Below are positions 36,221-55,160 of a stretch of 64,000 nucleotides of DNA, piece after piece. Every line of letters starts with the position of its first letter. Within the stretch, counting starts at the first letter, position 1. Source of the DNA: Daejeonella sp. (GTDB lineage: Bacteria > Bacteroidota > Bacteroidia > Sphingobacteriales > Sphingobacteriaceae); the NCBI RefSeq assembly GCF_030695525.1, contig NZ_JAUYSS010000049.1:1-64000 (forward strand), given 5' to 3'. A program made the translations under genes and the position numbers. The notes beneath the pieces were generated by a model that saw nothing but the letters and a program-made list of their open reading frames with translations, searched no databases and had not been told where the DNA came from.

Positions 36221-37000
36221 TCAGGATTTAAGGTATTTTCTTTCCTTCAGTTTATAGACATCCATTACCAGTTGTTTTAAAGCGCTTGTAACACATTCAC
36301 CTATACGAATACCCTTTTCTGCAGAAGCTTTGGTCGGATTTCCGTAAACACCATTGGGTGTCAGCTCCTTCATTGTACGATAAAAAGAAATTTTGGGACC
36401 GGATAACAAATCTCCTTCAACCGAAGAAAAAGCCGATACATTGGCTCCCTGCTTAATCAGCGATTCCTGAACTAAGTGCGGGGCAATAACTTTCATCAAA
36501 GAAGTCTCAAATTCGCAAGCATGGCCGGTACCCCCCGGACCTGTTTCTGTGATTTTTAATAGTTCTTCTTTTGCAACGTTCCACCAGGAAGCACCAAGAA
36601 TATGGGCATTCGGGTTGGCAAAGCCTAGCTGTTCAATAATGACCTGCATAATGCCCTGATTTCCGCCATGGCTGTTCAGTAGAATAATATTATAAAAACC
36701 ATGGTTTAAAACAGATTGAATGACTTCCTTAACAACTGCCGAAAAAGTGGTGTGACTGAGGGTAAGTGTTCCACAGAAACCCATATGATGATCCGAGCAG
36801 CCTACTGCAACGATAGGCAGAATCAATATTTTATCCCCAAGCTCCTTATTCAGCAAGCCTGAAAAATATTCACCGATCATCCTGTCGGTGGCAACAGGCA
36901 AATGAGCTCCATGCTGCTCAATTGCAGCAATGTTCAACAGAACCGGAGTTTGTTTATCCGCTTCAGCAAGCTGAACGGATGTTAGTTGATCCCAAAACAT
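36221..37000 (-). CDS. Creatininase-family hydrolase
   Basis: The 259-residue protein has no signal peptide and should be cytoplasmic. Family metal and active-site residues are present: Glu28 and His30 (IEQHGAHLP), Asp39 (ATDR), His111 (NSHGGN) and Glu165 (GHACEFETSLM). The family includes creatinine amidohydrolase and other amide- or lactam-cleaving enzymes. It is the last gene of the right-hand minus-strand run, 31 bp after the SDR gene, so a step in breakdown of the imported compound (for example opening a lactam or lactone) is a reasonable inference, not a demonstrated one. Confidence 0.85.
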   Translation of the reverse strand: MFWDQLTSVQLAEADKQTPVLLNIAAIEQHGAHLPVATDRMIGEYFSGLLNKELGDKILILPIVAVGCSDHHMGFCGTLTLSHTTFSAVVKEVIQSVLNHGFYNIILLNSHGGNQGIMQVIIEQLGFANPNAHILGASWWNVAKEELLKITETGPGGTGHACEFETSLMKVIAPHLVQESLIKQGANVSAFSSVEGDLLSGPKISFYRTMKELTPNGVYGNPTKASAEKGIRIGECVTSALKQLVMDVYKLKERKYLKS

Positions 37001-37031: not shown

Positions 37032-37778
37032 TTAATAAGTCGCCCGGCCTCCTGAAAGATCAAACGTGAATGCAGTAGAAAAACTTGCTTCAGGTGATAC
37101 GATGAAGGCAGCGGTTGACGCAGCTTCTTCCAGAGTACCACAACGCTTCATTGGAATTTTATCAGTCATATATTTCACCTGCTCATCGGGAAGGGCCTCA
37201 ACCATAGCGGTACGAATAACAGCAGGTGCCAGTGCATTGACAGTAACACCTGTTTCAGCATATTCCTTACCCTGAACTTTTGTCATCCCGATAACAGCGG
37301 CCTTGGAGGTAGAATAGGCGAGCATACCTGCATTTCCTTCCTTACCAGAGATGGATGCAATATGAAGCACCCTTCCGTATTTATTTTTTAGCATTACAGG
37401 TATGGCGTATTTGGAAGTATAAAATGAACCCATCAGATTTACATTGAGAACCAACTGCATATTTTCAGCCTCTACTTCATGACTAAGGATATTGGTTTTT
37501 CCTACAATACCGGCGCAGTTGACCAGAATATCAATGCGGCCAAAACGATCATTGACCTTTTTGATTGATTCTGCAACTTCTGCTTCATTCGTAATATCCA
37601 AAACATAAATTTCAGACTCCCCTGCTAAAAGGTTTCTTGTCTTTTGTAAGCCATTGGTATCCCTGTCGAATAATGCAAGTTTCACTCCTTTTTCGGATAA
37701 TTTCAAGGCAATTGCCTGACCTAAACCAGAGGCTGCTCCGGTAATAATTCCCACCTGATCTTTGAATTCAATTTTCAT
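37032..37778 (-). CDS. SDR-family NAD(P)-dependent oxidoreductase
   Basis: The 248-residue classical short-chain dehydrogenase has the cofactor motif TGAASGLG (about 13-20), an acidic residue at the end of strand 2 (LFDRD, Asp38) that favours NAD(H), NCAG at 87-90, and the catalytic Ser142-Tyr155-Lys159 set (ASISG, YSTSK). FabG-like and sugar dehydrogenases share this architecture, and the neighbouring MFS sugar-acid-type transporter and PUL make a sugar or sugar-acid substrate likely. It is 31 bp from the creatininase gene and 104 bp from the MFS gene. Confidence 0.88.
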   Translation of the reverse strand: MKIEFKDQVGIITGAASGLGQAIALKLSEKGVKLALFDRDTNGLQKTRNLLAGESEIYVLDITNEAEVAESIKKVNDRFGRIDILVNCAGIVGKTNILSHEVEAENMQLVLNVNLMGSFYTSKYAIPVMLKNKYGRVLHIASISGKEGNAGMLAYSTSKAAVIGMTKVQGKEYAETGVTVNALAPAVIRTAMVEALPDEQVKYMTDKIPMKRCGTLEEAASTAAFIVSPEASFSTAFTFDLSGGRATY

Positions 37779-39314: not shown

Positions 39315-41348
39315 TTAAAGATTCAGTTTCTTTCTTCCTGCATCTGTAAGCAGGTTAACACTCCATAAAGGATACCATGTTTGCTCCATAATTACTTTTT
39401 TGACACCCGGCACCGCATACAGTGCTTCCATCATTGTTTTTGATACAGAAGAATGAACCACATTGGAACTGTGTGTAAAATAGGCTCCGAGTGGGCGCCC
39501 CCTGTGTGGCATGGCCATGGTAACTTTTACTACACTACCCCGTACTGCTATATCATAAACCAATCCCAAATCAACAATACTAATATCTGATTTATACAAT
39601 TGTGGATCTTTTACCAATAATAAAGCTTCCCATAGTAATGCTTTATTAATCGGACTGTCCTGAGCTTCTGAAGCCCGGGCAAGACGACGCGGACTTTCTT
39701 TTGCAACTATTCCCTTTGGTAGTTCAGCACCTGATCTGCTTAATGGATTCAATAGTTCCTGTCTTAGATTTTCAATCTTAGCAGTATCATCCTTCAGGGT
39801 AAATGGTATGGTTACATAGGCATTCTTTTGATGTAAAACAGCTCCTTTTGGGATAGTCTTAATAGTTTTTGGAACCGGATACCGGCTCCAGATCTGTCCA
39901 TGCCATTGATAATGTAAATTAGGTGAACCGTTATGGGCTAATTCGGCCCCTAAACCTTCAGCATGGTGCTCAAGGAAAAATCCGAAAAAGGAGTCTTTGG
40001 TATCTTTATTGAAAAAACCGATTCCCCATAATTGATCACTTAACTCTGCAGGAACATTACCTGTTTTTAATTTTTCATCCGGGCCCATCCATAACATGTC
40101 AGTAAATGATTGACCAGTTATTACCCATTCATCATCCCTTAAAGCTGCAGGAGAGAATTGCTTGACAGCAGTCATATGACCAAACTTATGAAAATAAGGC
40201 AAGCCGGCATAAAAACGATACTCTATATCCATGATCATACGGGCCGGTGAGAATAATGGATGCACAGGTGAATAAGGGAATCCCCAGCGGCGGATAATCG
40301 TACAGATTGGCCCTTTAACTACTTCAAAATCGGGGCACTCATCCCATAAAGAAATACGCATTTTTTGAAATCCCTCATCAGATACATAATCATGAGCCCA
40401 ATCTATTCCGGCTGGTTCGCCATGACCCTGACCTCCAGAATAGATCTCCAGGCCATGCTCACGTTTTAAGATCATGCGCGCAAGTTGTCCGGTTTGTTTG
40501 GATAGAATTGCTGTAAAGAATTCATTTTCTATATCTAAACCGTAGCCTTCTCCGGTCACTTTTAAATCAGACTGATAATCAGGCAATTCAGCATCCGGAT
40601 TACCGTAAAAAACGACATAATGTCTCTTCTCTTTTCCCTGATTATCGGCAAGGAATAACAATTTACATATCTTTTCAGAACCTCTGCGTACCTCAGAGAA
40701 AACCTGAGAAATCACTTCAGTTAATACACCATCCCTAATCTCGGCTACCCGTATTTCGCGTGTAAGGGAAGCTGTCTGAGAAGCCTGGAAACTCAACAAA
40801 ACTTCTACAGGTTCAGCTTTACGAGGAGTTCCTATTTTTTCTTCCAGACTGACCACCTTGTAGTAATTCCATCCTTTTGCCCAGTTTTTCCAGGCTGTGG
40901 GAAGTGAAGCCACTGTTCCAAACTGGCTTGCAGCTACATGGGGTGTTCCAAAGTTCTCTTCTTCCGCCTGCAACTGGATCTCCGATATTCTGATTGAATT
41001 GGTCAGGGATCTGGCTGTTCTGTAATCCTTCTTTGCCAATGCCTCCTGAAGTAATTGAATTTTTTCCTGTATACTATCTGTCTGGCTGGTTGTTTGATCT
41101 GCATAAGGTGCAATAGCTTCCTTTATAAAACTCTCAACGGAATTCTGATTTTCTGCTTTGGAACTTAGGGGCAGAGTCAAACCTGCAAAACCTAAAAGGC
41201 CCATACCCAGAAATTTACGACGCTTCATCGAATCTGAAAATTGAGGTTCTAAACCTGCATTCATTACCTCAGCTTCATCTCCTGTTCTTAATCTGGAGGT
41301 ATCATCATGCATTTTTAATGCCGATTTTGATGGATTAAATTTCTTCAT
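39315..41348 (-). CDS. Tat-exported beta-domain protein with C-terminal DUF59/MIP18-like domain, paralogue 1
   Basis: The start at 41348 (MKKFNPSKSALKMHDD) was chosen over 41375 to match the MKK starts of the sister genes. About 40 hydrophilic residues precede a twin-arginine signal (MKRRKFLGMGLLGFAGL). After an alpha-helical stretch come two beta-rich parts: one with PVEVLLSFQASQTASLTREIRVAE, and one resembling the supersandwich of mutarotase-like or lyase enzymes (GYGLDIENEFFTAILSKQTGQLARM, MDIEYRFYAGLPYFHKFGH). The last 110 residues match DUF59 (SIVDLGLVYDIAVRG). The usual Cys-Pro of DUF59 is Arg-Pro (PHRGRPLG). This copy differs from 2 and 3 mainly in the linker and ends GRKKLNL. Function unknown; carbohydrate processing is inferred from context. 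Confidence 0.75.
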   Translation of the reverse strand: MKKFNPSKSALKMHDDTSRLRTGDEAEVMNAGLEPQFSDSMKRRKFLGMGLLGFAGLTLPLSSKAENQNSVESFIKEAIAPYADQTTSQTDSIQEKIQLLQEALAKKDYRTARSLTNSIRISEIQLQAEEENFGTPHVAASQFGTVASLPTAWKNWAKGWNYYKVVSLEEKIGTPRKAEPVEVLLSFQASQTASLTREIRVAEIRDGVLTEVISQVFSEVRRGSEKICKLLFLADNQGKEKRHYVVFYGNPDAELPDYQSDLKVTGEGYGLDIENEFFTAILSKQTGQLARMILKREHGLEIYSGGQGHGEPAGIDWAHDYVSDEGFQKMRISLWDECPDFEVVKGPICTIIRRWGFPYSPVHPLFSPARMIMDIEYRFYAGLPYFHKFGHMTAVKQFSPAALRDDEWVITGQSFTDMLWMGPDEKLKTGNVPAELSDQLWGIGFFNKDTKDSFFGFFLEHHAEGLGAELAHNGSPNLHYQWHGQIWSRYPVPKTIKTIPKGAVLHQKNAYVTIPFTLKDDTAKIENLRQELLNPLSRSGAELPKGIVAKESPRRLARASEAQDSPINKALLWEALLLVKDPQLYKSDISIVDLGLVYDIAVRGSVVKVTMAMPHRGRPLGAYFTHSSNVVHSSVSKTMMEALYAVPGVKKVIMEQTWYPLWSVNLLTDAGRKKLNL

Positions 41349-41422
41349 ATTCATTCTGTTTTTGTCAATAATCATCAGGAAAACGCGTCTCCATTAGATA
41401 AATTAATTATTCAATTTTAATT

Positions 41423-43423
41423 CTAAATACCCAATTTTTTTCTACCCTCATCCGTAAGCATATTAGAACTCCAACCCGGATACCAGGTCTGTTCCATAAT
41501 CACTTTCTTAACCCCCGGAACCTCATAAACCGCCGTCAGAATATTTTTGGAAGTGGTGGGATGCACGACATTGGATCCGTAAGCAAAATAGGTCCCCAGG
41601 GGCCGGCCCCGATGAGGCATCGCTATTAATACTATTACGACACTACCTTTTACAGTAACATCATATACTAAACCAAGATCCACAATACTGATATCAGACT
41701 TATAGAACTGAGGATCCTTAACATCTCTTAATGCCTTCCATATCAATTCTTTAGGTATCGGGCTATCCTGAGCCTCTCCCATACGTTCTAAACGCCTTGG
41801 ACTCTCAATCGCCTGAACAGTATTATTCAGTACAGATGAAGAGCTTGTTAAAGGATTCATTAGCTCTTTTCTAAGCGATTCAATCTTCGCCTGACCATGT
41901 TCTTTGGTAAATGGGATAGTGACATAGGCATTTTTTTGGTGCAGGATTGTTCCTTCCTTAACGATCTTATCTCGTTCTAGTGGATACCGGGACCAGGTCG
42001 TTCCGTGCCATTGATAATACATATTCGGTCCGCCATCATGAATCAGTTCCGTTTCTCTCCCATCTGCACGATGATCGAGAAACAAGCCCATAAATGAATC
42101 TTTGGTATCCTTATTAAAAAAACCAATACCCCAAAGATTCTTGGCTGATTCGGTTGGAACAGCTCCAAAGTGCAACTTGCCATCAGCACTCATCCACATC
42201 TGATCAGTAAATGATTGCCCGGTAATTACCCATTCATCATCCCGTAGTGCCGCTGATACGAAATCTTTAACAGTGGTCATGTGACCGAATTTAAAAAAAT
42301 ACGGCAGACCTGCATAAAAACGATATTCAATATCCATGTTCATTCTGGCCGGCGCAAACACCGGATGTATTGCTGAATAAGGGAAACCCCAGCGACGAAT
42401 GATCGTACAGATTGGCCCCCTGACGACTTCAAAATCTGGACATTCATCCCATAAGGATATTCTAAGTTTTGAAAAGAAACCCTCTGTTATATAATCATGT
42501 GCCCAATCGATACCAGCCGGCTCACCATGCCCCTGTCCACCTGAATAGATCTCCAACCCATGTTCACGTTTTAGCACCATTCTGGCCAGCTGACCGGTTT
42601 GTTTTGAAAGATAGGCGGTAAAATACTCGTTCTCTATATCTAGTCCGTAACCTTCACCAGTAACCTTCAGATCAGACTGATAATTAGGAAGTTCTGCATC
42701 CGGATTACCATAAAATATGAGGTAAGTCCGCTTTTCTTTACCCTGATTATCTGCAAGAAACAGGAGTTTACAGATCTTTTCAGCTCCTCGTCTAATTTCT
42801 GAAAAGACCTGTGATATTACCTCTGTCAACACACCATCCTTTATTTCTGCAACCCGGATCTCACGTGCAAGTGAAGCAATTTGTGTCGTCTGGAAGCTCA
42901 ACAAAACTTCTACAGGTTCTGCTTTACGCTGAATACCCACTTTCTCTTCCAGGTTCACTACTTTATAATACTTCCAGCCCTTCGCCCAGTTCTTCCAGGC
43001 AGCAGGAAGTGAAGAGACAGCCCCAAATTGATTTGCTCCAATCAATGGGGTCCCCAAATCTTCATGATCAGCCTGAGCCTGAAGTTCTGATATACGAAGA
43101 GAGTTGGTTAATGCCCGCGCCAGACGATAATCTTTTTTATCCCAGGCTTTCTGAAGCATTTTCATCTTATCCTCGAAACTATCTGATTGACTGGATACAG
43201 ACTCTGCAATTGAAACAGATTCATTTACAAAATTCTCTAGGGAAGTCTTTCCTTCAGCTTTAGTGCCAAGAGGTAAACTAAGTCCCGCAACACCGATTAA
43301 GCCCAATCCGAGGAATTTACGGCGTTTTATTGTTTCAGACATTGCAGATTCCAAATGTTCAATTTTACTATTGTCTATCGGATTAAGCTGCGCATCGGAA
43401 GTGTCTCTATTTAATTTTTTCAT
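41423..43423 (-). CDS. Tat-exported beta-domain protein with C-terminal DUF59/MIP18-like domain, paralogue 2
   Basis: This 666-residue member starts MKKLNRDTSDAQ, with KRRKFLGLGLIGVAGLSLPLG as Tat signal about 33 residues in. A helical region (ESVSSQSDSFEDKMKMLQKAWDKKDYRLARAL) is nearly identical to paralogue 3. The DUF59-like region occupies about 557-666 and carries Arg607-Pro608 where the Fe-S assembly relatives have Cys-Pro. Conserved surface-type motifs across the array are GGQGHGEPAGIDWAHDY, WDECPDFEV and RGPICTIIRRWG; the His, Asp, Glu and Cys in these could form an active site. It is separated from paralogue 1 by 74 bp and from paralogue 3 by 52 bp, suggesting one transcript. Confidence 0.75.
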   Translation of the reverse strand: MKKLNRDTSDAQLNPIDNSKIEHLESAMSETIKRRKFLGLGLIGVAGLSLPLGTKAEGKTSLENFVNESVSIAESVSSQSDSFEDKMKMLQKAWDKKDYRLARALTNSLRISELQAQADHEDLGTPLIGANQFGAVSSLPAAWKNWAKGWKYYKVVNLEEKVGIQRKAEPVEVLLSFQTTQIASLAREIRVAEIKDGVLTEVISQVFSEIRRGAEKICKLLFLADNQGKEKRTYLIFYGNPDAELPNYQSDLKVTGEGYGLDIENEYFTAYLSKQTGQLARMVLKREHGLEIYSGGQGHGEPAGIDWAHDYITEGFFSKLRISLWDECPDFEVVRGPICTIIRRWGFPYSAIHPVFAPARMNMDIEYRFYAGLPYFFKFGHMTTVKDFVSAALRDDEWVITGQSFTDQMWMSADGKLHFGAVPTESAKNLWGIGFFNKDTKDSFMGLFLDHRADGRETELIHDGGPNMYYQWHGTTWSRYPLERDKIVKEGTILHQKNAYVTIPFTKEHGQAKIESLRKELMNPLTSSSSVLNNTVQAIESPRRLERMGEAQDSPIPKELIWKALRDVKDPQFYKSDISIVDLGLVYDVTVKGSVVIVLIAMPHRGRPLGTYFAYGSNVVHPTTSKNILTAVYEVPGVKKVIMEQTWYPGWSSNMLTDEGRKKLGI

Positions 43424-43475
43424 TTTAATTAAAACAATTAAATATTAAATCATGCTTTATTTTATTATTCAATAA

Positions 43476-45512
43476 TTAAATACCAAGTTTCTTTCTTCCA
43501 TCATCTGTCAGCATATTAGAACTCCAGCCTGGATACCAGGTTTGTTCCATAATAACTTTTTTAACTCCCGGAATTTCATAAACAGCTGTCAGAATATTTT
43601 TAGAAGTGGTTGGGTGCACGACATTCGATCCGTATGCAAAATAGGATCCAAGAGGTCGGCCTCTGTGAGGCATAGCTATTAATACTTTTACTACACTTCC
43701 CCTTACTGTCACATCATAGACTAAACCAAGATCAACTATGCTGATATCTGATTTATAGAATTGGGGATCTTTCACGTCACGGAGTGCCTTCCATATCAGA
43801 TCTTTGGGTATTGGGCTGTCCTGCGCCTCGGCCAGTCTGGCCAGTCGCCTAGGGCTATCTCTGGAGAGTATATTTTGCTGAATTGAACTGGCTGAAACCG
43901 CCATTGGATTCATCAGCTCCTTTCTCAAACGTTCGATTTTTCCAGATCCATCCTTTGTATCAAAAGGGAGCGTGACATAGGCATTTTTTTGATGGAAAAC
44001 AGCCCCTTCCGGAATAGTTTTTACCCCTTGTGGAACCGGCCAGCGTTGCCAAAACTGACCATGCCATTTGTAATAGAAACTAGGCGAACCGTTATGACGT
44101 AATTCCTGAAATCCATCCGCATGATGTTCGAGAAAGAGCCCGATAAAGGAGTCTTTGGTGTCTTTGTTAAAAAAGCCTACCCCCCATAGATTATCAGCTG
44201 ATGCTTCAGGCACCTCCCCAATCTGAACCTTACCTTCAGCATTTACCCACACAATATCTGTAAATGACTGACCGGTAATGACCCATTCATCATCGCGTAC
44301 ATAGACCATATCAAATGTCTTAAGTGCCGACATATGGCCAAACTTGTGGAAATAAGGTAAGCCGGCATAAAAACGATACTCAATATCCATGTTCAATCTT
44401 GCAGGAGAGAAAACCGGATGTACCGGAGAATATGGCAAGCCCCAGCGACGAATGATAGTACAGATTGGGCCTCTGACAACTTCAAAATCCGGGCATTCAT
44501 CCCATAGGGAGATCCGCACTTTTTGAAAATTATCCTCAGTCACATAATCATGTGCCCAATCTATACCGGCAGGTTCTCCGTGCCCCTGCCCACCGGAATA
44601 GATTTCCAGGCCATGTTCCCTTTTCAGGATCAGCCTTGCCAACTGGCCGGTTTGTTTTGAAAGATAAGCGGTAAAATACTCGTTTTCAATATCAAGCCCG
44701 TATCCTTCGCCCGTCACTTTAAGATCAGATTGATAATTAGGTAGTTCTGCATCCGGATTACCATAAAATATCAGATAATCCCGCTTCTCCTTACCTTCAT
44801 TATCTGCAAGAAACAGAAGTTTACAGATCTTTTCAGCTCCTCGTCTAACTTCTGAAAAGACCTGTGATATCACTTCTGTCAAAACACCGGATTTTATTTC
44901 TGCCACCCGGATTTCACGTGCAAGGGAAGCAGTTTGTGAAGCCTGAAAGCTGAGTAAAACCTCAACAGGTTCCGCCTTACGTTGTATTCCTGCCTTCTCT
45001 TCTAAACTCACAACTTTATAATACATCCAGCCTTTTGCCCAGTTCTTCCAGGCAGTTGGTAGTGAAGAAACAGTACCAAATTGATTGGCAGCAATCAATG
45101 GGGTTCCAAAATCTTCATGATCAGCCTGAGCCTGAATTTCCGAAATACGAAGGGAATTAGTTAATGCCCGCGCCAGACGATAATCTTTTTTATCCCAGGC
45201 TTTTTGAAGCATATCCATCTTATCCTCAAAACTATCCGACTGACTCGAAACTGATTCTGCGACCGAAACTGATTCCTTTACAAAATTCTCAATAGCGGTC
45301 TTTTTTTCAGCTTTAGTACTTAGCGGCAAACCAAGTCCGGCAACACCCAATAAGCCCATACCTAAAAACTTACGACGCTTCATTCCGTCACAATTCGGGG
45401 TTTCGGACTCTTTTACCGGAACTTCTTCCGCGAATAATCTTTCTGAAGCCGGAATTCCTGAGTCTGCTTCCCGAAATTCTGAATCTGGTTTAGATGAAAA
45501 TTTTTTATTCAC
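43476..45512 (-). CDS. Tat-exported beta-domain protein with C-terminal DUF59/MIP18-like domain, paralogue 3
   Basis: This 678-residue member is the closest sister of paralogue 2; the two share long identical runs in the helical region and the DUF59-like tail, which points to a recent duplication. The N-terminal extension (MNKKFSSKPDSEFREADSGIP) is unrelated in sequence to that of its sisters although its length is similar. Tat motif: MKRRKFLGMGLLGVAGLGLPLS. It replaces the VSAALRDDEWV found in sister 2 with DMVYVRDDEWV in the region after the FGHM motif, so substrate-side differences are possible. Gap to paralogue 4 is 61 bp. Confidence 0.75.
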   Translation of the reverse strand: MNKKFSSKPDSEFREADSGIPASERLFAEEVPVKESETPNCDGMKRRKFLGMGLLGVAGLGLPLSTKAEKKTAIENFVKESVSVAESVSSQSDSFEDKMDMLQKAWDKKDYRLARALTNSLRISEIQAQADHEDFGTPLIAANQFGTVSSLPTAWKNWAKGWMYYKVVSLEEKAGIQRKAEPVEVLLSFQASQTASLAREIRVAEIKSGVLTEVISQVFSEVRRGAEKICKLLFLADNEGKEKRDYLIFYGNPDAELPNYQSDLKVTGEGYGLDIENEYFTAYLSKQTGQLARLILKREHGLEIYSGGQGHGEPAGIDWAHDYVTEDNFQKVRISLWDECPDFEVVRGPICTIIRRWGLPYSPVHPVFSPARLNMDIEYRFYAGLPYFHKFGHMSALKTFDMVYVRDDEWVITGQSFTDIVWVNAEGKVQIGEVPEASADNLWGVGFFNKDTKDSFIGLFLEHHADGFQELRHNGSPSFYYKWHGQFWQRWPVPQGVKTIPEGAVFHQKNAYVTLPFDTKDGSGKIERLRKELMNPMAVSASSIQQNILSRDSPRRLARLAEAQDSPIPKDLIWKALRDVKDPQFYKSDISIVDLGLVYDVTVRGSVVKVLIAMPHRGRPLGSYFAYGSNVVHPTTSKNILTAVYEIPGVKKVIMEQTWYPGWSSNMLTDDGRKKLGI

Positions 45513-45573
45513 AGCAAAATTTTAAAAGGTGTTTTATTGTTAAGCCGAAAGCCGGCTTGTTAATTTTTTCAAT

Positions 45574-47613
45574 CTATATCCCTAATTTTTTACGGCCTTC
45601 ATCTGAGATGAGATTGGAATTCCATTCTGGATACCAGGTTTGATTCACTACAACTTTGCGCACTCCGGGTATTTCTGTGAGAGCTCCCACAATTGTTTTT
45701 GACACGGTACGATGAACTACACTCGATCCCCAGATAAAGAAGCTTGACAATGGTCTTCCCCTGTGTGGCATAGTCATTAATACTTTTACCACCCCATCAT
45801 CATCCATTGAAAGATTATAGATATATCCCAGTTCAACAATATTTACATCGGCGATATACAGCTGCTGATCTTTACAATTTCTCAAAGCATCCCATAATAC
45901 TTGTTTCGGAATCTGACCATTTAGTGCTTCACCCTCACGGGCAAGAACCCGCTTATTTTCTTTTGCAGCAAGTCCGGAAGGCAAAGCAGCCTGGAAGGAA
46001 GATAGCGGACTTAATAACTCTTTTCTTAATGCTTCAATTTTTGCCGGACCGTCAGCCTCAGTAAAGCCTACAGTTACATAAGCATTCTTTTGATGCAGGA
46101 CAGCTCCTTCCGGAACGATTTGATTTCTTTCAAGCGGATAACGGGACCAGGTTGTTCCATGCCAGTTATAATACAACATCGAATGGCCGGCATGAAGAAA
46201 TTTTGGTATTTCTTCGGCAGAATGTTCTAAATAAAGCCCAATAAATGAATCCTTAGAGTCTTTATTATAATACCCAAATGCTTTAACACTGTGCTTATTG
46301 GCTTCATCAATTTCCCCAAACTTTAATTTTTCATCGGCACCCATCCAAAGACTTCCGGTAAAGGGCTGACCTGTAAATACCCATTCATCATCCCTAAGTG
46401 CGGTGGAAACAAACTGTTTGATTGCTTTCATCTTGCCAAACTTATGGAAGAAAGGAAGTCCCGCATAAAAGCGGTATTCAATATCAATATTCAAACGGGA
46501 AGGATTGTAAACAGGATGAAGTGCAGAATGCGGAAAACCCCAGCGGCGAACAATGGTACAGATTGGACCCCGTACAATCTCATAATCCGGGCACTCTCCC
46601 CAGTATTGGATTCTGACCTTCATGAAATTATCTTCAGAAACGTAATCATGAGCCCAGTCGATACAAGGAGTTTCTCCGTGTCCGGGACCTCCGGCATATA
46701 ATTCAACCCCATGCTCCCTTTTAATTAACATCCGTTCCAACTGGCCGGTTTGTTTAGAAAGTGAAGCAATGAAGTATTGATTTTCTATTTTCAAATGGTA
46801 ACCTTCTCCGCTTACTTCAAGATCTGAGGTATATTCAGGTAATTCAGCATCCGGATTACCGAAAAAGACCAGATAGTTTCGTTTTTCCCCTCCCTGATTA
46901 TCAGCCAGGAACATCACTTTACACAATCTTTCTGGCCCCCTCCTTACTACCCCATAAACCTGGGAAGTAACTTCCTTTATCTGACCATTACTAATTTCTG
47001 CCACACGAATTTCCCTGGCAAGGGATGTTACCTGTTCTGAACGGAAAGCTAACAAGACCTCTACAGGTTCCGCATTTCTTTTAATTCCAGCTTTCTCCTC
47101 CAAGCCAATAACTTTATAATACTTCCATCCATTTGCCCAGATTCTCCATGCCACTGGAAGCGATGCAACAGTACCAAACTGACCAGATCCTACTAATGGC
47201 TTTCCCGGATCCTCATCTTCGATCTGAGCCTGAATACCTGTATTCCGCAGCGAATCACTTAGGGAACGTACCATTCGGTAATCCTTTTCTGCCCAGGCTT
47301 TCTCAATTAATTTAATCTTAGTTTCGAAACTATCAGACTGTTTTTTGTAAAGTTCAGTTTCAGTAGCTATAATTTCTTTTACAAATTCCTCAACAGAATT
47401 GTTTTCGGCGGCTCTTACCCCAAATGGCAAACTCAAACCGGCCATACCCAACAAACTCATTCCGAGAAATTTTCTACGTTTAATAGGATCAGAAACCTGA
47501 GCCGAGAGCTCATTATCATTGGTTTTGGACTTATGGATACCATTCAAAGAAGTTTCCTGAAAGGAATCAACCGGACTCAATAATTCAGATTGGATTTGCT
47601 TATTTTTTTTCAT
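45574..47613 (-). CDS. Tat-exported beta-domain protein with C-terminal DUF59/MIP18-like domain, paralogue 4
   Basis: This 679-residue member, with paralogue 5, forms a second subgroup. Subgroup marks are GGPGHGETPCIDWAHDY (an extra Cys where 1-3 have AG), QYWGECPDYEIVRGPICTIVRRWGFPHSALHP, and a DUF59-like tail with VELGYIYNLSMDDDGVVKVLMTMPHRGRPLSSFFIWGSSVVHRT. The metal-binding Cys of DUF59 is again Arg. Tat motif: IKRRKFLGMSLLGMAGLSLPFG, after about 45 residues. The 123-bp spacer upstream contains a tandem repeat and separates it from paralogue 5. Function not recognised. Confidence 0.75.
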   Translation of the reverse strand: MKKNKQIQSELLSPVDSFQETSLNGIHKSKTNDNELSAQVSDPIKRRKFLGMSLLGMAGLSLPFGVRAAENNSVEEFVKEIIATETELYKKQSDSFETKIKLIEKAWAEKDYRMVRSLSDSLRNTGIQAQIEDEDPGKPLVGSGQFGTVASLPVAWRIWANGWKYYKVIGLEEKAGIKRNAEPVEVLLAFRSEQVTSLAREIRVAEISNGQIKEVTSQVYGVVRRGPERLCKVMFLADNQGGEKRNYLVFFGNPDAELPEYTSDLEVSGEGYHLKIENQYFIASLSKQTGQLERMLIKREHGVELYAGGPGHGETPCIDWAHDYVSEDNFMKVRIQYWGECPDYEIVRGPICTIVRRWGFPHSALHPVYNPSRLNIDIEYRFYAGLPFFHKFGKMKAIKQFVSTALRDDEWVFTGQPFTGSLWMGADEKLKFGEIDEANKHSVKAFGYYNKDSKDSFIGLYLEHSAEEIPKFLHAGHSMLYYNWHGTTWSRYPLERNQIVPEGAVLHQKNAYVTVGFTEADGPAKIEALRKELLSPLSSFQAALPSGLAAKENKRVLAREGEALNGQIPKQVLWDALRNCKDQQLYIADVNIVELGYIYNLSMDDDGVVKVLMTMPHRGRPLSSFFIWGSSVVHRTVSKTIVGALTEIPGVRKVVVNQTWYPEWNSNLISDEGRKKLGI

Positions 47614-47678
47614 TTTTCAATTGATATATTATTGTCGGCAATAAGGTGTTAAATAATTGTGCTTAGCTTTAATACTTT

Positions 47679-47712
47679 TCTGAAGTCTGACATCTGAAGT
47701 CTGACATCTGAC
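47679..47712. repeat. TCTGAAGTCTGACA tandem repeat
   Basis: The 14-base unit TCTGAAGTCTGACA occurs twice in a row (47679-47692 and 47693-47706) followed by a partial third copy to 47712. Further on, TCTCATATCTCATATC (about 47728) abuts the stop codon of paralogue 5. The style resembles the repeat next to the DgaE-like gene at 10.3 kb. Confidence 0.7.
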
Positions 47713-47736
47713 CTCCGGCATCCTGCTTCTCATATC

Positions 47737-49818
47737 TCATATCCCCAGTTTTTTACGACATTCATCACTCATCAGATTGGAATTCCATTCAGGATACCAG
47801 GTCTGATCAACCACAACTTTCCGGACTCCCGGTATTTCCGTCAGTGCCCCCACAATCGTTTTTGAAACCGTACGATGCACCACACTTGAACCCCATATAA
47901 AGAAACTCGATAATGGCCGGCCTCTATGTGGCATAGTCATAAGAACTTTAACCACCCCATCACCCTCTACAGAAAGATTATAAATGTATCCGAGTTCAAC
48001 AAGGTTGACATTGGAGATGTACATTTGCTGATCTATACAACTTTTCAAAGCCTCCCATAAAACTGCCTTTGAAATCAGGCTATCCCCGGCTTCTCCGGGT
48101 CTTGCCAGGGAGCGTTTACTTTCTTTGGCAGACGTAATTGTAGCTAAGTCCGAGGAAAAACTGTCCATTGGATTTAAGAGTTCTTTCCGCAGTGCCTCAA
48201 TTTTACCCGGCCCATCCTTTTCGGTAAAAGCAATCGTTACATAAGCATTCTTCTGCCGGAGTATGGCACCCTCTGGTATTGTATGGTTTTTTATTCCATC
48301 TATGGTTGGATGACGGACCCATACCGTTCCGTGCCAGTTATAATAAAACAAGGATGAACCTCCATCCAGAAGGTCCGGTATTACTTCCGAAGAATGATCC
48401 AAATAAAGACCCACAAAAGAGTCTTTTGAATCTTTATTATAGTATCCAAAACCCTTCACACTGTGCTTATTGGCTACATCAACCTCGCCGAACTTTACCT
48501 TTTCATCAGCGCCTATCCATATACTTCCGGTAAAAGGCTGTCCTGTGAAAACCCATTCGTCATCCCGCATAGTCTGGATAACGAAGGCTTTTACAGCTTT
48601 CATTTTACTGGATTTAAAGAAGTATGGCAATCCTGAATAAAAGCGATACTCTACATTAATATTTAATCGGGAGGGATTGTAGATGGGATGCAGTGCTGAG
48701 TGTGGAAATCCCCAGCGTCTGACGATCGTACAGATTGGCCCGCGGGTAATCTCGTAATCAGGGCATTCACCCCAATACTGAATCCTGACTTTCATGAAAA
48801 AATCTTCTGCAACATAATCATGTGACCAGTCAATACAAGGAGTTTCGGCATGAGCCGGACCTCCTGCATACAATTCAACACCATGCTCCCTCTTAATCAG
48901 CATCCGCTCCAATTGACCAGTTTGCTTGGAGAGCTTGGCAATAAAATACTGATTTTCAATTTCAAGATCATAGCCTTCACCCCTCACTTCAAGATCTGTT
49001 GTATATTCAGGTAACTCTGCATCCGGGTTTCCATAGAAAACTAAATACTGACGTTTTTCAGAGCCTTTATTATCAGCCAAAAACATGACTTTACACAACC
49101 TCTCAGATCCTCTTCTTACTACGCCATACACCTGTGAAGTAACTTCCTTAAGTAATCCATTATCAATTTCTACAACACGAATTTCGCGTGCCAAAGAGTT
49201 AACCTGATCTGAACGGAAGCCTAATAAAACTTCAACAGGTTCTGCTTGTCTTGGAATTCCGGCTTTTTCCTCCAGAGCAAGAACTTTGTAATATTTCCAG
49301 CCTTTTGCCCAGATTCTCCAGGCTTCCGGAAGGGTAGCAACAATGCCAAATTGATTACCATTAAGCAAGGGTTTACCAGGATCTTCATACTCATTCTGTG
49401 CTTGTATACCCGTATTCCTGATGGAGTCACTTAAAGAGCGAACCATCCTGAAATCTTTTTCATCCCAGGCCTTCTGCATCAATTTCATTTTATCCTCAAA
49501 ACTATCCGAGTGCTTTTTAAACAAATCAGTTTCAGAGGCAACAATATCATTTACAAATTCTTCAACATAATTGTTGTCAAATCCTTTAACCCTATTTGGC
49601 AATCCCATACTCGCAATTCCAAATAAACCCAGTCCAAGGAACTTCCTTCGCTTCAATTGAAGGTTTGCAGAAGCCATATTTTCTTCAAAATGATGATGAG
49701 GATGGGTGGTGATATTTTTTTCAATACTACCATCCGAATTTTCCATAGCAGCTAAGTCAGAAAAGTTCTTATCAGATTCTATCATGCATTTGAGTTTATC
49801 AGAATTATAAGCAATCAA
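47737..49818 (-). CDS. Tat-exported beta-domain protein with C-terminal DUF59/MIP18-like domain, paralogue 5
   Basis: This 693-residue member is first in transcription order. The extension before the Tat motif (LKRRKFLGLGLFGIASMGLP) is the longest, about 55 residues, and includes HPHHHFEEN; starting at the ATG at 49785 would shorten it by 11 residues. It follows subgroup 4 in GGPAHAETPCIDWSHDY and in the DUF59-like tail, with the same Arg instead of Cys. Two hairpins in the 195 bp upstream separate it from SusD 2. Its place right after SusC/SusD is where glycan-degrading surface or periplasmic enzymes usually sit in such loci. Confidence 0.75.
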   Translation of the reverse strand: MIAYNSDKLKCMIESDKNFSDLAAMENSDGSIEKNITTHPHHHFEENMASANLQLKRRKFLGLGLFGIASMGLPNRVKGFDNNYVEEFVNDIVASETDLFKKHSDSFEDKMKLMQKAWDEKDFRMVRSLSDSIRNTGIQAQNEYEDPGKPLLNGNQFGIVATLPEAWRIWAKGWKYYKVLALEEKAGIPRQAEPVEVLLGFRSDQVNSLAREIRVVEIDNGLLKEVTSQVYGVVRRGSERLCKVMFLADNKGSEKRQYLVFYGNPDAELPEYTTDLEVRGEGYDLEIENQYFIAKLSKQTGQLERMLIKREHGVELYAGGPAHAETPCIDWSHDYVAEDFFMKVRIQYWGECPDYEITRGPICTIVRRWGFPHSALHPIYNPSRLNINVEYRFYSGLPYFFKSSKMKAVKAFVIQTMRDDEWVFTGQPFTGSIWIGADEKVKFGEVDVANKHSVKGFGYYNKDSKDSFVGLYLDHSSEVIPDLLDGGSSLFYYNWHGTVWVRHPTIDGIKNHTIPEGAILRQKNAYVTIAFTEKDGPGKIEALRKELLNPMDSFSSDLATITSAKESKRSLARPGEAGDSLISKAVLWEALKSCIDQQMYISNVNLVELGYIYNLSVEGDGVVKVLMTMPHRGRPLSSFFIWGSSVVHRTVSKTIVGALTEIPGVRKVVVDQTWYPEWNSNLMSDECRKKLGI

Positions 49819-49986: not shown

Positions 49987-50015
49987 AAAAAAGTACCTTT
50001 CTTGGAAGGGTACTT
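49987..50015 (-). terminator. Rho-independent terminator overlapping the SusD 2 stop
   Basis: AAGTACCTTT and AAGGGTACTT form a 10-bp stem (one G-T pair) with a 5-base loop. On the minus strand a run of T follows. The stem includes the SusD stop codon. It should end most SusC/SusD transcription before the array. Confidence 0.75.
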
Positions 50016-51585
50016 AGTTTGATTTTGATTTATCCCACCACAAACGGGTAGCCACGTTATCAGGACCACCACCAAGCAATGGAACCGCTGCCTTTACTGC
50101 AGCACCATTAGCAATGATTTCCCTGTCGAGGAAGGATATTCTCCGGATCATCTTATCCGGTGTTATATCAGGATTTTGAGAATTTAACAGAGGATAAAAT
50201 TTTGGATACCCAGATCTTCTGATACTTGCCCATGCCTCATGACCTTCCGGGAAAAGAGCAATCCATTTCTGGGTTCCGATTTGTTCACGTTGTCTTTCAG
50301 TATTAGTTTCCCATTTTACCGGAATATCTGTTAAAGGGGGAGTAGGGAACAGATTATCAGGTGCGATAGGTAGACTTGTACCATTAACATAAGCAGAAAT
50401 AACTGCCGCACTGGTAATGCCATGTTCACGCAATGAAGTTTCTATCCCCATCTCATAAAGTTCTTTGGCGGTACCACCCATATTCCAGCCATTCAATGCT
50501 CCTTCGGACCTAAGAAAATAAGCCTCAGAGGCATAAAAAACAACCTGAGGAGTTGTAGTCATCGTGGCAGAAGCATACTTTGGACCAACTGCTGAATTAT
50601 TGTTAATACTATTTGCAGGCAAATTTTGTTGAGCAACGGTCATTCCGTTTCTAACACCACGGAACTTACCATCGGTTAGTGCAGGGCTCCAAAATACAGG
50701 TAGCCTTGGGTCATTATAACCAACTAATAAACTTTCCATGGTAGTACTCATCCGAGAGCCATTTCTACTCATAAAATTGTTCAGTCCATTGTTAAAATCT
50801 GCATTAGTTGCAAAATGGGCTCCATCTGAAGCCTGTGTCATCACCCCGGCAGCAAATGCCTTCTCTGCTTCCAATTTAGCTTTAGCAGGCTCTACATCCG
50901 AAATTCTTAATGCCAAACGCAGGCGCAAGGTATTTCCAAACTTTAACCATTTAGCATTATCTCCATTATAGATACGATCTGCTGTTGCAAATGAAGGTTT
51001 AGTTAAATTATTTTTGAGATCTGTAGTTGCTTCATCCAGTTCTTTGAAGAAATCAAAATAAATACTCTTTTGATCATCGTAACTCACAACTGTAGTATCC
51101 TTACCAATTTTGGAATATGGAATCGGACCCCATTGGTCAGTCACACGCATAAAACAGAAAACTTTCCACATTCTGGCAATTGCATTCATGCTAGGTTCTT
51201 TTCCACCTTTAGTTGCCTCGATAATGTTTACTAATTTAGGCATTGCATTTACATAGGTTCCAGGCCAAATGTCCTGCCATCTTTGAACAATAACATATCT
51301 GTGAGACTCCTGATTGATGTTTGTGCCGGCAAAATGTTGAGAGTATACTCCAGGAAACAAGAGCATACTCGTTTCGTTATAACCTATTCCACCTCCGGCT
51401 ACTAATGCACCGGGGAATAAACTACGTAAATCCGGAGCAGTCAGTTCCAATAAACCATCCGGTCTTCTGTTTATTTCATCGAAATTTTTTGTACAGGCAG
51501 TCAGTATTACGATTGGTGCCAAAAATAGCACCATTCTGATGGCCCACTTTCTATATAATGATTTTTGAGTTTTCATTTTATTCAA
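50014..51585 (-). CDS. SusD/RagB-family nutrient-binding outer-membrane lipoprotein 2
   Basis: The 523-residue lipoprotein has a lipobox LTAC at about residue 31 followed by TKNFDEINRRPDGL, the SusD-like_2 signature shared with SusD 1. The C-terminal part carries REQIGTQKWIALFPEGHEAWASIRRSGYPKF, typical of the family. It partners the SusC encoded 43 bp upstream. A second ATG three codons in is an equally possible start. The extra charged residues before the hydrophobic core (MNKMKTQKSLYRKWAIRM) make a long n-region. Confidence 0.92.
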   Translation of the reverse strand: MNKMKTQKSLYRKWAIRMVLFLAPIVILTACTKNFDEINRRPDGLLELTAPDLRSLFPGALVAGGGIGYNETSMLLFPGVYSQHFAGTNINQESHRYVIVQRWQDIWPGTYVNAMPKLVNIIEATKGGKEPSMNAIARMWKVFCFMRVTDQWGPIPYSKIGKDTTVVSYDDQKSIYFDFFKELDEATTDLKNNLTKPSFATADRIYNGDNAKWLKFGNTLRLRLALRISDVEPAKAKLEAEKAFAAGVMTQASDGAHFATNADFNNGLNNFMSRNGSRMSTTMESLLVGYNDPRLPVFWSPALTDGKFRGVRNGMTVAQQNLPANSINNNSAVGPKYASATMTTTPQVVFYASEAYFLRSEGALNGWNMGGTAKELYEMGIETSLREHGITSAAVISAYVNGTSLPIAPDNLFPTPPLTDIPVKWETNTERQREQIGTQKWIALFPEGHEAWASIRRSGYPKFYPLLNSQNPDITPDKMIRRISFLDREIIANGAAVKAAVPLLGGGPDNVATRLWWDKSKSN

Positions 51586-51628: not shown

Positions 51629-54600
51629 TCAGAATGTTGCGTTCAGGCTAAGACCAATATTACGGGTTGTAGGTAAAGAAGAATATTCCATACCACCCCT
51701 ATTAGTTACTGCTGTAGCAATCTCAGGATCGTAAGGCGCATATTTCTTTAAGAATAGCAGATTCCTTCCAACCAGAGATAATCTGGCATTTTTAATAAAT
51801 CCTGATTTTTGAACAAACTGATTTGGAATTTTGTACCCAAACACCACTTCTCTCAGCCTAAGGTTAGTCGCAGAAAAAGCATAAAAGTCTTTTGCAGGAG
51901 TTCTGTTACCTAATGATTGCCAGTATCTTTCTGCAGTAATTGATGTTGTGTTTTTTACACCGGCTGTAGTATAACCATCCACAACAATCCCGGTTTCTCT
52001 ATATTGAAGAGAATTTTTCGAGTTACCACTCACATCCATTGCAGCCAAAGTACCGGCTACAACTGTACCGCCATTTCTGTAATCTAATAAGAAACTGAGG
52101 TTAAGATTTTTAAAAGTGAATGAATTGTTGACACCAAGCATATAATTAGGATTATAATTTCCTGCATAAGCTGTTTTCCCGGTAAGAATTGGAACACCTG
52201 CAGGACTAACTAACCTTCTGCCTTGTGCATCTTTACTCCATTCGGCCATATACATTTCTCCAAAGGACTTGCCTTCTTCAACTGTTTCGAGCACCTGTCT
52301 GTCATCACCTAAAACAGCTGTTTTAAGTCTCTCAGACAATCTAACAACTTTATTAACATTTTTAGAGAAGTTAAGCATCATGTCCCATGAAAAACTCTGA
52401 TTTCTAATTGGCGCACCACTTAACATAATTTCTACACCACTATTCCGGATCAATCCGGCATTGATATACTGAGAACTAAAGAGTGTAGCATTTGGAACAG
52501 CCAAAGCAATTAACTGGTTTTCAGTATTAGATCTATAATAAGTAACATCAAGCCCTATCCGGTTGGTAAAGAATCGCCAGTCTAACCCGGCTTCAAATGA
52601 AGTAGTAATTTCCGGTTGATAATTCCCGAGTGATCTAACACTAGGAGTATTTATGGCACCACCAGCCCCTACCGAAAAATAATTATCAGTCAAATATTGT
52701 CGACCTCCGTAACCTGCTTTTGCGTAGGTTGTTCTAAGCTTACCATAAGAAACCCAAGATGGTAAATCAATCATATCTGTGATTATTGCCGTTAAACCTA
52801 CTGAAGGGTAGAAATAAGATTGATTCTCTTTCGGTAGTGCCGAAGACCAATCGTTTCTTGCAGTAACATCAAGATAGAGGTAATCTTTAAAGGATAAGGT
52901 AGAAGTAGCATATAAAGATTGAACTTGAGGCTCTCTACCAATTACGTTTGTAGTTCTTGGATTCTTCGCATTAGACATGAAGAAGAAATCAAGCTTATTC
53001 AAACCATTTGCATTGGTATTGATAGATTCATATTTAGTTTCCTGAATTGAACCTCCAAGATATCCGTTTAAATTAAAATCCTTAGTAATGTTTCTTTTGA
53101 ACGACAATAATGCATCCACATTAGTGAATCTTCTATTTCCGGCATAAAGTTCAAAATAGTTTCCATTTCCTGAAAGTTCATACGAATCATTGTGCATTCT
53201 ATTTTCCGTACTCATATCAGTTCTATCCATACTCCCTCTTACCTGAAAATCCAGCCAGTCATTAAACTTATACTTTGCTTGTATCAGGCCAATCATACGA
53301 CGCTTTTGCTCAAAGAAAACCTGCCTGTTCATCTTCCAATATGGATTCGATAAGTAAATAGAGCCTGGAAGCCAATAGCTTTGTCTAAGGTTACCCAAAA
53401 CATCAGTATATTCGAAATTCTGCATTTCACTTAGTGGAATTGAAGCCGGAGCATGATATATACTACCTGTTGCATCATTTCTTTCGCCAGTAAAGGGCTT
53501 ATTATCAACATCTTCAACGATATAACTTAGCTTGGTGAAAAATGAAAGTTTGTCAGTAATACTGTTATCTATCTTGAAATCAAAATTATGTCTGTCTAAA
53601 ACATGGTTTCTAAGAATACCATTCGCCTTATTATTACCATATGAAAAATAGGTTTGCATTTTCTCACTACCACCACTAATTCCTAAGGTATTTGTCAAAC
53701 TTGATCCATCACGATAAAAATCTTTTATACGATCAGGCTGACCTTGCATAGGCACTTGCTTACCATTCCATAATGTGATTGTTTGTCCTGTAATTTTTGG
53801 ACCCCAGCTGGTTTCAGAGTTTGCATTATAAACACCTCCAGCACCTTGCCCGTACTCTGACTGTACTTCAGGAAGGATAAATGGGCGATCAATAGTTGTA
53901 TTTCCGGTATAATCAACGGTAATTTTACCTGATTTTCCTCTTTTGGTTGTGATAATGATTGCACCATTTTGTCCCAAACTTCCATATAATGCAGCTGCTG
54001 AAGCACCTTTGAGGATAGTCATAGATTCGATATCATCACTATTCAACATACCTATACCATCACCACCATCCCGACTTCCATGTGTACCACCAGTTCCTAC
54101 CTCACGACTAGTATTGTCCATTGGAACACCATCAATAACATATAATGGTTGGTTATTACCGAATACAGAGCGTTGACCACGTAAAACAACATTTGATGAA
54201 CTACCCGGGCCGGTTGCATTCTTGGTAATAGTTACACCGGCAACCTTTCCAGCCAGGGAATTAATCAGATTTGTTTCTTTAGCCTGATTAAGATCAGCTG
54301 TTTTAACAGTCTGAGCAGCATAGTTTAAGGATTTAGAGGATCTTTCGATACCCAGAGCGGTTACCACAACCTCTCCAAGCATTTGAGAATCTTCAATGAG
54401 GGTAACATTAATAATTGTTCTTCCATTCACAGCAACTTCCTGACTTAAATAACCTATATAACTAAAAACCAAAGTCCCGTTATCAGGTGCATTCAGGACA
54501 AAATTTCCCTGAGCATCTGTTGTTGTTCCAACTGCGGTACCTTTTACCCGGACACTAACACCGGGAAGGGTTTCTCCTTTTGAGTCAACAACCTTACCAC

Positions 54601-55096
54601 GGATATCCATTAAAAGGTAACTAGTATTTTTCAATGCTTTCTTTGCTTTTCCAGATAATTTCTCGCTGATTACTATGGTTTTATTTTCAATACTGTAATC
54701 CAATGGCTGATCATTAAAAAGAATAGCTAAAGCCTCCGATAATTCGGTGTCAACAATCTTTAAGGTTACCGGCTTGGCTGTTTTTAACAGATTCAAATCA
54801 TAAAAAAACACATAGCCTGTTTGCTGTTTAATAGTAGAGAAAAACTCTTCAAGAGGGGCATGTTTACCTGTTAAGGTTACTTTTTGTGAATATCCTTTGG
54901 AATAGACATTCATGAGAGCAACCATGATTAAGATGAACGTCAGTTTCATAATCCGTCCGATTTGTTTGTAAAGCGACTTTTTTACCAAATTATCAGCAAT
55001 CTGGTGTTGCTCTGTATGGTCCAAGCAGCCTGATTCAAGGCAAACTTTTGACCGAGTATTGATATTACAATACTCTTTATTAGTTAGAGAATTCAT
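51629..55096 (-). CDS. SusC/RagA-type TonB-dependent transporter 2 with STN domain
   Basis: I place the start at 55096 (MNSLTNKEYCN, 1155 residues); the frame is open to 55138 but that start lies 22 bp from the upstream hairpin. Order of parts: extension, signal peptide (MKLTFILIMVALMN to GYSQ), STN domain, carboxypeptidase-regulatory-like domain (MDIRGKVVDSKGETLPGVSVRVKG), plug (VVLRGQRSVFGNNQPLYVIDG), then the barrel ending LSLNATF. The STN domain ties it to the FecR/sigma pair encoded just upstream. It imports the ligand captured by SusD 2. Confidence 0.93.
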   Translation of the reverse strand: MNSLTNKEYCNINTRSKVCLESGCLDHTEQHQIADNLVKKSLYKQIGRIMKLTFILIMVALMNVYSKGYSQKVTLTGKHAPLEEFFSTIKQQTGYVFFYDLNLLKTAKPVTLKIVDTELSEALAILFNDQPLDYSIENKTIVISEKLSGKAKKALKNTSYLLMDIRGKVVDSKGETLPGVSVRVKGTAVGTTTDAQGNFVLNAPDNGTLVFSYIGYLSQEVAVNGRTIINVTLIEDSQMLGEVVVTALGIERSSKSLNYAAQTVKTADLNQAKETNLINSLAGKVAGVTITKNATGPGSSSNVVLRGQRSVFGNNQPLYVIDGVPMDNTSREVGTGGTHGSRDGGDGIGMLNSDDIESMTILKGASAAALYGSLGQNGAIIITTKRGKSGKITVDYTGNTTIDRPFILPEVQSEYGQGAGGVYNANSETSWGPKITGQTITLWNGKQVPMQGQPDRIKDFYRDGSSLTNTLGISGGSEKMQTYFSYGNNKANGILRNHVLDRHNFDFKIDNSITDKLSFFTKLSYIVEDVDNKPFTGERNDATGSIYHAPASIPLSEMQNFEYTDVLGNLRQSYWLPGSIYLSNPYWKMNRQVFFEQKRRMIGLIQAKYKFNDWLDFQVRGSMDRTDMSTENRMHNDSYELSGNGNYFELYAGNRRFTNVDALLSFKRNITKDFNLNGYLGGSIQETKYESINTNANGLNKLDFFFMSNAKNPRTTNVIGREPQVQSLYATSTLSFKDYLYLDVTARNDWSSALPKENQSYFYPSVGLTAIITDMIDLPSWVSYGKLRTTYAKAGYGGRQYLTDNYFSVGAGGAINTPSVRSLGNYQPEITTSFEAGLDWRFFTNRIGLDVTYYRSNTENQLIALAVPNATLFSSQYINAGLIRNSGVEIMLSGAPIRNQSFSWDMMLNFSKNVNKVVRLSERLKTAVLGDDRQVLETVEEGKSFGEMYMAEWSKDAQGRRLVSPAGVPILTGKTAYAGNYNPNYMLGVNNSFTFKNLNLSFLLDYRNGGTVVAGTLAAMDVSGNSKNSLQYRETGIVVDGYTTAGVKNTTSITAERYWQSLGNRTPAKDFYAFSATNLRLREVVFGYKIPNQFVQKSGFIKNARLSLVGRNLLFLKKYAPYDPEIATAVTNRGGMEYSSLPTTRNIGLSLNATF

Positions 55097-55160
55097 ACAT
55101 TTGTTTGTTTTGTTAATAAATAATCTTTGTGCAATCAATTTTTATTTTAGCTAAACAATG

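Follow-up and report, generated by a model that had tools for sequence, protein, structure and literature searches.

A DUF59 domain without its cysteine, fused to a predicted supersandwich module in leader-bearing proteins of a Daejeonella SusC/SusD locus

DUF59 proteins act in iron-sulfur (Fe-S) assembly together with cytoplasmic partners (PMC4982691, PMC9045647). The motif of the domain is DPE-X26-31-T-X2/3-C, with a Cys that is required for contacts with Suf partners (PMC9045647), and a conserved Cys was present in each of the 761 SufT homologues identified in PMC4982691. The fusion partners of SufT that the latter paper lists are a U-type scaffold, a Rieske ferredoxin, CysE, PaaJ/acetyltransferase, a P-loop NTPase, DUF1858, PqqD and one undefined N-terminal motif. 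Here we describe five tandem open reading frames (ORFs) on the minus strand of a Daejeonella sp. contig (NZ_JAUYSS010000049.1, 39315-49818; 666-693 amino acids (aa)), found in a stretch of 64,000 nucleotides that we call the window, in which a DUF59 tail without this Cys follows a putative export leader and a large N-terminal beta module (the front module). No partner like the front module is named in that list, and no description of the DUF59 fusion was found among the best-ranked results of the large sets obtained from the literature. What is new is a known domain in a new architecture; the fold class of the front module is already known.

Two other families come close to the front module. 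PL26 enzymes (PcRGLX; PDB 5xqg, 5xqo, 5xq3) consist, going by Pfam names, of beta domains and a helical C-terminal domain, and their two N-terminal beta domains resemble the predicted fold of the front module. The fusion proteins differ from them in having no helical C-terminal domain, with only a linker and DUF59 past residue 545 (residue numbers are those of the third protein, W3, throughout). Members of the DUF4861/BT_3233 family (PF16153, NF058564) are close in length to the fusion without its tail and show a weak profile match in the first domain, but they carry no DUF59 and their model misses the fusion proteins in direct scans; no publication mentioning DUF4861 turned up in the literature searched. 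The reading that we favour, with a probability of roughly 0.4, is that the fusion proteins are Tat-exported substrate-processing proteins of a SusCD locus, in which DUF59, by exaptation, would provide an additional module for contact or dimer formation where PL26 has its helical domain.

A conserved DUF59 tail without the SufT motif

The original prediction, made from the DNA letters alone, had announced five tandem ORFs, and all five were found, with the following layout (all on the minus strand).

39315..41375, minus: fusion gene 1 (W1), ORF of 686 aa, PF01883 at 24.5 bits
39318..39674, minus: DUF59 tail of W1, by alignment
41423..43423, minus: fusion gene 2 (W2), ORF of 666 aa, PF01883 at 26 bits
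41426..41782, minus: DUF59 tail of W2, by alignment
43476..45512, minus: fusion gene 3 (W3), ORF of 678 aa, PF01883 at 27.9 bits
43479..43835, minus: DUF59 tail of W3 (residues 560-678), by PF01883, PDB profile matches and predicted fold (3cq2, TM-score 0.82 by target length)
43653..43670, minus: PHRGRP of W3, where SufT has Thr-x-x-Cys-Pro; PH[RK]GRP in 30/30 copies
43878..45113, minus: beta module of W3 (residues 134-545), predicted beta-sandwich plus supersandwich (pLDDT 68.6, pTM 0.70; PL26 5xqg_F, Z 17.1)
45574..47613, minus: fusion gene 4 (W4), ORF of 679 aa, PF01883 at 21.4 bits, slightly below cut-off
45577..45936, minus: DUF59 tail of W4, by alignment
47737..49818, minus: fusion gene 5 (W5), ORF of 693 aa, PF01883 at 21.7 bits, slightly below cut-off
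47740..48099, minus: DUF59 tail of W5, by alignment

In each protein a variable N-terminus with an RRxFLG leader precedes the conserved front module (about 455 residues), which a linker connects to the tail (about 115 residues); W1, W2, W4 and W5 are 54-78% identical to W3. A sixth copy (W6) lies on the same contig about 18 kb past the array, outside the window (front and tail match at 67530-69452; L037:7525-9585, contig about 67.5-69.6 kb), as part of a second locus that contains a separate SusC/SusD pair. Our analysis covered 30 copies, i.e. the five of the window, that of L037, 18 from loci L007-L015 and six from genome G407; five pieces cut by contig ends (L011, L012, L014, L015 and L016) and the copies in eight other genomes of the genus lie outside this set. 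As the fusion recurs in many other assemblies it is not an assembly artefact. In a tree of the 30 copies, rooted at midpoint, W4 and W5 fall in one group (support 100/100) and W1-W3 in another (93/96); W6 and the L067 copies have long branches and are placed uncertainly. Both groups hold copies of several genomes, G407 included, and the split between them is therefore older than the genomes sampled.

By Pfam, by sequence matches in the PDB and by predicted fold the tail is a genuine DUF59 homologue, as originally proposed. PF01883 scored above its curated cut-off (23.5 bits) in three of the five whole proteins (24.5-27.9) and just under it in two (21.4 and 21.7); in the genome search all six copies counted as above it, one only after its in-frame neighbours had been joined. 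The best NCBIfam SufT/PaaD model for each window protein gave E-values of 3.8e-10 to 3.2e-14 (n=5), and none of the five reached an equivalog cut-off for SufT or PaaD (best 53.1 versus 180 bits). A profile of 14 tail sequences matched four DUF59 proteins in the PDB (2.5e-11 to 2e-5), namely TM0487 (2.5e-11), TTHB138 (1.5e-9), 3lno (1e-7) and 5ird. Structure prediction of the full protein followed by a Foldseek search, the check suggested at the outset, placed DUF59 structures at the top (3cq2_A at E 4.0e-6, with a TM-score of 0.82 by target length); the full-length model is poor overall (mean pLDDT, the predicted local distance difference test, of 51) and its matches for the front half were set aside. 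Of the motifs quoted in the original prediction, WYPxW is present in all five proteins, while SIVDLGLVYD and PGVKKV occur only in the genes at 39315, 41423 and 43476 and are not common to the array, since W4 and W5 have N[IL]VELGYIYN and PGVRKV instead.

Compared with the DUF59/SufT/PaaD family (PF01883, TIGR02945, TIGR03406, NF041868), which the C-terminal 115 or so residues resemble in sequence and predicted fold, the tail stays below the NCBIfam equivalog cut-offs, is joined to a leader-bearing beta module, has about 11 extra residues shortly past PHRGRP in the alignments and, above all, lacks the DPE-T-Cys motif, with Arg replacing Cys. The SufT motif DPE-X26-31-T-X2/3-C was found in 0/30 fusion copies, and PH[RK]GRP stands in its place in 30/30. 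The replacement of the Cys-Pro of Fe-S relatives by Arg-Pro, first noted for the five window proteins (PHRGRPL in each), extends to all 30 copies. Among 21 other DUF59 loci (the 19 best-scoring stand-alone loci of the phylum search, hence not a random sample, plus L059 and L060 of the own genome), scored positive if any of their ORFs carries the motif, 20 have kept it; the exception, L059, has an ORF of 382 aa that is presumably of the Mrp/ApbC type. Residues H616, R619, Q657, W659 and W663 of the tail, which belong to a newly conserved surface, are invariant in 14 sequences, and R617 is Lys in one L010 copy.

The front module and the tail are under equally strong purifying selection, with omega (Nei-Gojobori) at about 0.04. 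In four orthologue pairs between the window and L007 omega was 0.040-0.045 in the tail and 0.029-0.053 in the front module, and reached 0.19-0.39 in the leader region. In four more distant pairs (L010 twice, L068 and L069) the front module was saturated; the two L010 pairs gave a tail omega of 0.042 and 0.038 at a synonymous divergence (dS) of 1.6-1.7, and those with L068 and L069 yielded no omega. The loss of the SufT motif and the low PF01883 scores could be expected of a degenerating leftover of the gene fusion, but the tail is not decaying, as selection on it is as strong as on the front module, and PH[RK]GRP has been kept in all 30 copies. We regard a leftover as very improbable, and the four orthologue pairs led us to reject tail decay.

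The RRxFLG leader, called by pattern and not by a signal-peptide predictor, was found in 29/30 copies, the one miss (L008:1-1752) being cut by a contig end, and reads RRKFLG in 5/5 window proteins, in agreement with the Tat (twin-arginine translocation) signal first proposed for each. TatC is encoded in the genome (7.2e-64). Leader and TatC together point to Tat export of the fusion proteins, and a DUF59 tail without the key Cys on proteins of an exported type suggests that the domain has been given a new job outside the cytoplasm. The Tat system carries folded proteins, and with a leader in nearly every copy the tail might instead act before export, aiding folding or the loading of a partner in the cytoplasm, after which the protein would exit folded. 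Such a role would be in line with the cytoplasmic partners of DUF59 proteins elsewhere in Fe-S assembly (PMC4982691, PMC9045647), but the Cys needed for SufT partner contacts according to PMC9045647 is gone in 30/30 copies, no known cofactor domain was found in the front module by Pfam scans, and a relative without DUF59 (see below) is lipoprotein-like; a role before export seems to us distinctly improbable.

The front module and its relatives

The front module gave no significant match to any Pfam or NCBIfam family, and none to PDB sequences (the best, a La-related protein at 0.061, was taken as chance). A match of the whole protein to a characterised family, named beforehand as one of two results that would refute a new system, was likewise not obtained in the Pfam and NCBIfam scans; the other, a tail whose fold is unlike DUF59, did not occur either, as the predicted tail fold resembles DUF59. 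The view of the front half as an orphan was borne out only in part: it has no sequence family, but its predicted fold is a supersandwich widespread among carbohydrate enzymes, and there is a weak profile link to DUF4861.

In structural alignments, which span the fold families listed by Foldseek, the model of residues 134-545 came closest to the PL26 exo-rhamnogalacturonan lyase 5xqg_F (Z 17.1, root mean square deviation 5.1, 340 aligned residues, model positions 28-410, 9% identity), with the GH38 enzyme Ams1 (6lz1, Z 16.7, 274 aligned) level to within 1 Z unit. Further supersandwich matches were a GH174 fucanase (9k1g, Z 15.2) and a galactose mutarotase (3mwx, Z 14.2), and YidC was also among the structural matches. 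From the alignments with PL26, GH38, GH174 and the mutarotase we predict a beta-sandwich followed by a supersandwich, an arrangement common to many enzymes that act on carbohydrates. The C-terminal part of GH38, the fucanase and the mutarotase would have the supersandwich core in common with the fusion, at 8-9% identity, a likeness of fold only. Membership of PL26 by sequence was rejected: PF19501 (the PcRGLX_1st domain) had no match in the own genome at E <= 0.001, and an alignment of the fusion family with three PcRGLX proteins by hhalign gave a probability of 0.1%.

Outside the genus, one distant relative was recovered with a wider profile, in genome G158 of another family of the class (one genome among 395; E 4.5e-5, 45.5 bits versus at best 5.6 in 3000 shuffles). 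This protein (L080:5251-6438) has 396 aa, is lipoprotein-like and carries no DUF59, so the front module also occurs without the tail. Of 100 genomes from the family to which G158 belongs, none but G158 itself matched. Genes near that of the relative encode a protein weakly similar to DHDPS and an Nramp transporter. Two further matches of the class search (E 0.018 and 0.030; 35-38 profile positions, internal stops) were taken as chance, and short matches of the wider profile in five genomes (E 0.0015-0.0097; 32-65 profile positions) fell in ORFs of 584-621 aa that, by their size, we assume may be YidC.

The same relative offers a link to DUF4861, as it matches NF058564 (the BT_3233 family) at 0.097; of ten loci that match NF058564, six score over the family cut-off, and all three that were scanned are DUF4861 by Pfam. 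In hhalign comparisons (E-values for one target) DUF4861 was matched by the fusion family at E 0.001 (probability 22%) and by the DUF59-less relative at 9.5e-5 (59%), in the first domain only. For the family and the relative, respectively, E fell no lower than 0.023 and 0.015 among 28 control proteins (window proteins, with homologues where found) and no lower than 0.046 and 0.034 among 40 column shuffles; the reversed alignment gave 0.24 and 0.44. PF16153 was not listed for nine aligned family members at E <= 10, nor for the relative at E <= 1. On these profile comparisons homology of the front module with DUF4861 is probable but unproven.

The fusion itself was found in a single genus, which is a lower bound, as the genome searches stayed within the phylum and the contig scan used two short patterns. 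Within the family, the front-module profile matched 10 of 301 genomes, which belong without exception to the window's genus (10 of its 20 genomes), and in the phylum 1 of 395, the own genome. The full profile matched 111 of 296 genomes of the phylum, mainly through the tail, since among the matches listed all those outside the own genome begin at residue 512 or later. A pattern search of genome contigs gave 134 stretches, from which 12 relatives in 10 loci were obtained, with titles naming Daejeonella, Sphingobacteriaceae, Sphingobacteriales, Sphingobacterium thalpophilum or Bacteroidetes. Of the 177 plasmid records that the whole protein matched at E <= 1, the best 20 cover residues 537-678 only, and the front module had a single plasmid match, at E 1. 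In viral contigs 91 pattern stretches contained no relative.

Seven residues (Arg406, Asp408, Glu409, Trp488, Arg490, Lys509 and Tyr512) persist in the DUF59-less relative, at an identity of 23%. A conserved set of this kind would be expected of an active site or a site of tight binding, and might be read as a point against the idea that the fusion proteins are non-catalytic periplasmic or surface binders, in which both modules would bind and the five paralogues would capture one ligand in different forms for SusC, but the persistence of R406, D408, E409, R490, K509 and Y512 would fit binding as well and weighs little. Several paralogues stand in a row directly after SusC/SusD, the module has no recognisable catalytic signature, and non-catalytic supersandwich domains exist. 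Pure binding is the next most likely form after substrate processing, and by itself rather unlikely.

The locus and the nature of the substrate

The array follows a SusC/SusD pair, as originally observed, and is flanked by the following genes.

50014..51585, minus: SusD-like lipoprotein, upstream of the array (PF12741, 3.9e-116)
51629..55138, minus: SusC/RagA TonB-linked porin (TIGR04056, 3.1e-203)
55211..57105, minus: two ORFs of 429 and 187 aa, which we take to be FecR-like and sigma-like regulators; homologues upstream of SusC in L010 and L015
37883..39208, minus: MFS transporter of anion/sugar-acid type (PF07690; TIGR00893 at 2.4e-64, below its cut-off)
37032..37778, minus: SDR oxidoreductase (PF13561, 1.5e-54)
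36221..37000, minus: creatininase-family hydrolase (PF02633, 1.6e-61; nearest PDB sequence 3lub, 1.9e-13)

The typical order is SusC-SusD-[fusion]n-MFS-SDR-(RidA)-creatininase. SusC/SusD lie directly upstream in the window, L007, L009, L010, L015, L067 and L069, and genes intervene in L068 and L037. MFS-SDR-creatininase, with RidA in L010, follows downstream in the window and in all seven contig-search loci with a covered downstream flank (L007-L013). Genome G407 has three differing loci: L069 has MFS and SDR and no adjoining creatininase, L068 has a quinoprotein, SDR and creatininase, and in L067 an M19 dipeptidase (12028-13341) and a RidA protein (13582-14046), both with Tat-like leaders, lie beside two divergent fusion copies. 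No literature combining creatininase, SusD, dehydrogenase and RidA turned up in the literature searched.

The neighbouring creatininase, RidA and M19 genes led us to consider also that the locus degrades a nitrogen-containing compound (a cyclic amide, lactam or peptide-like), with the front module as its hydrolase or binder. A creatininase-family hydrolase is present in the window locus and in eight others (L007-L013 and L068), RidA in L010, and the M19 dipeptidase with a leader-bearing RidA beside the L067 copies. Creatininase relatives, however, also act on keto-inositols (the IolN model reached 75 bits against a cut-off of 245, and the protein is hence not IolN), the front fold is by prediction the supersandwich of carbohydrate enzymes, uptake would be through SusC/SusD, and sulfatases and a quinoprotein dehydrogenase are encoded nearby. 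We consider a nitrogenous substrate improbable.

Other genes of the region were noted as well. Upstream of the array and on the same strand, a sulfatase stands beside an FGE-sulfatase-domain protein (57470-60198), with homologues in L015. The L037 locus contains two similar proteins of 363 aa (the one scanned has a PKD domain), two similar quinoprotein-like genes (the one scanned, at 61737-63944 of the window, has a PQQ propeller and cytochrome c) and, we assume, an FG-GAP-type protein. A set of five amidohydrolase-like genes that resemble each other and have signal-like starts (4746-10191 and 19288-20589; four stand in a row, and the one scanned has Amidohydro_1) adjoins SelA-like PLP enzymes and another SusC/SusD-like pair in what looks like a second catabolic locus. 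A single ORF of 1450 aa (30033-34385), equal in length in L010 and L012, presumably encodes an RND metal-efflux pump and a TolC-like outer-membrane part in one protein.

A proposed role in substrate processing

On the substrate-processing reading the fusion proteins would work on a glycan or glycoside. SusC/SusD would bring the substrate into the periplasm, where the supersandwich module would bind it and probably act on it. The DUF59 tail, its Fe-S function lost, would occupy the place that the helical domain has in PL26 and serve as a further module for substrate contact or dimer formation, with PHRGRP and QTWxPxW in its new conserved surface. The product may then enter via the MFS transporter, after which the SDR and the creatininase-like hydrolase would act on it.

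Several observations weigh against this proposal. By sequence the front module matches no characterised enzyme significantly in Pfam, NCBIfam or the PDB, and no CAZyme (carbohydrate-active enzyme) family was found among the locus genes scanned with Pfam and NCBIfam, no CAZy-specific library having been used. The front model (residues 134-545) was built on 23 close relatives and has a mean pLDDT of 68.6 and a pTM (predicted TM-score) of 0.70, and the supersandwich also occurs in non-catalytic parts, e.g. the C-terminal part of GH38 and the P1 domain of YidC. The M19 dipeptidase and RidA with Tat-like leaders in G407 and the creatininase of the locus also fit a nitrogenous substrate. The omega values come from window-L007 pairs with dS of 0.5-1.7, partly near saturation.

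A bolder version, which we consider doubtful, is that DUF59 has been exapted outside the cytoplasm for carbohydrate contact or catalysis and stands in for the helical domain in an enzyme of PL26/DUF4861-like type, with an Arg/His/Trp surface in exchange for the reactive Cys, and that the proteins form a new carbohydrate-active family.

The occurrence of DUF59 with a sugar-enzyme-like module and an export-type leader, without its Cys and under strong selection, would mean that the fold is useful independently of Fe-S chemistry. The fusion family is a concrete candidate for an unassigned glycan-degrading or glycan-binding family in the Bacteroidota.

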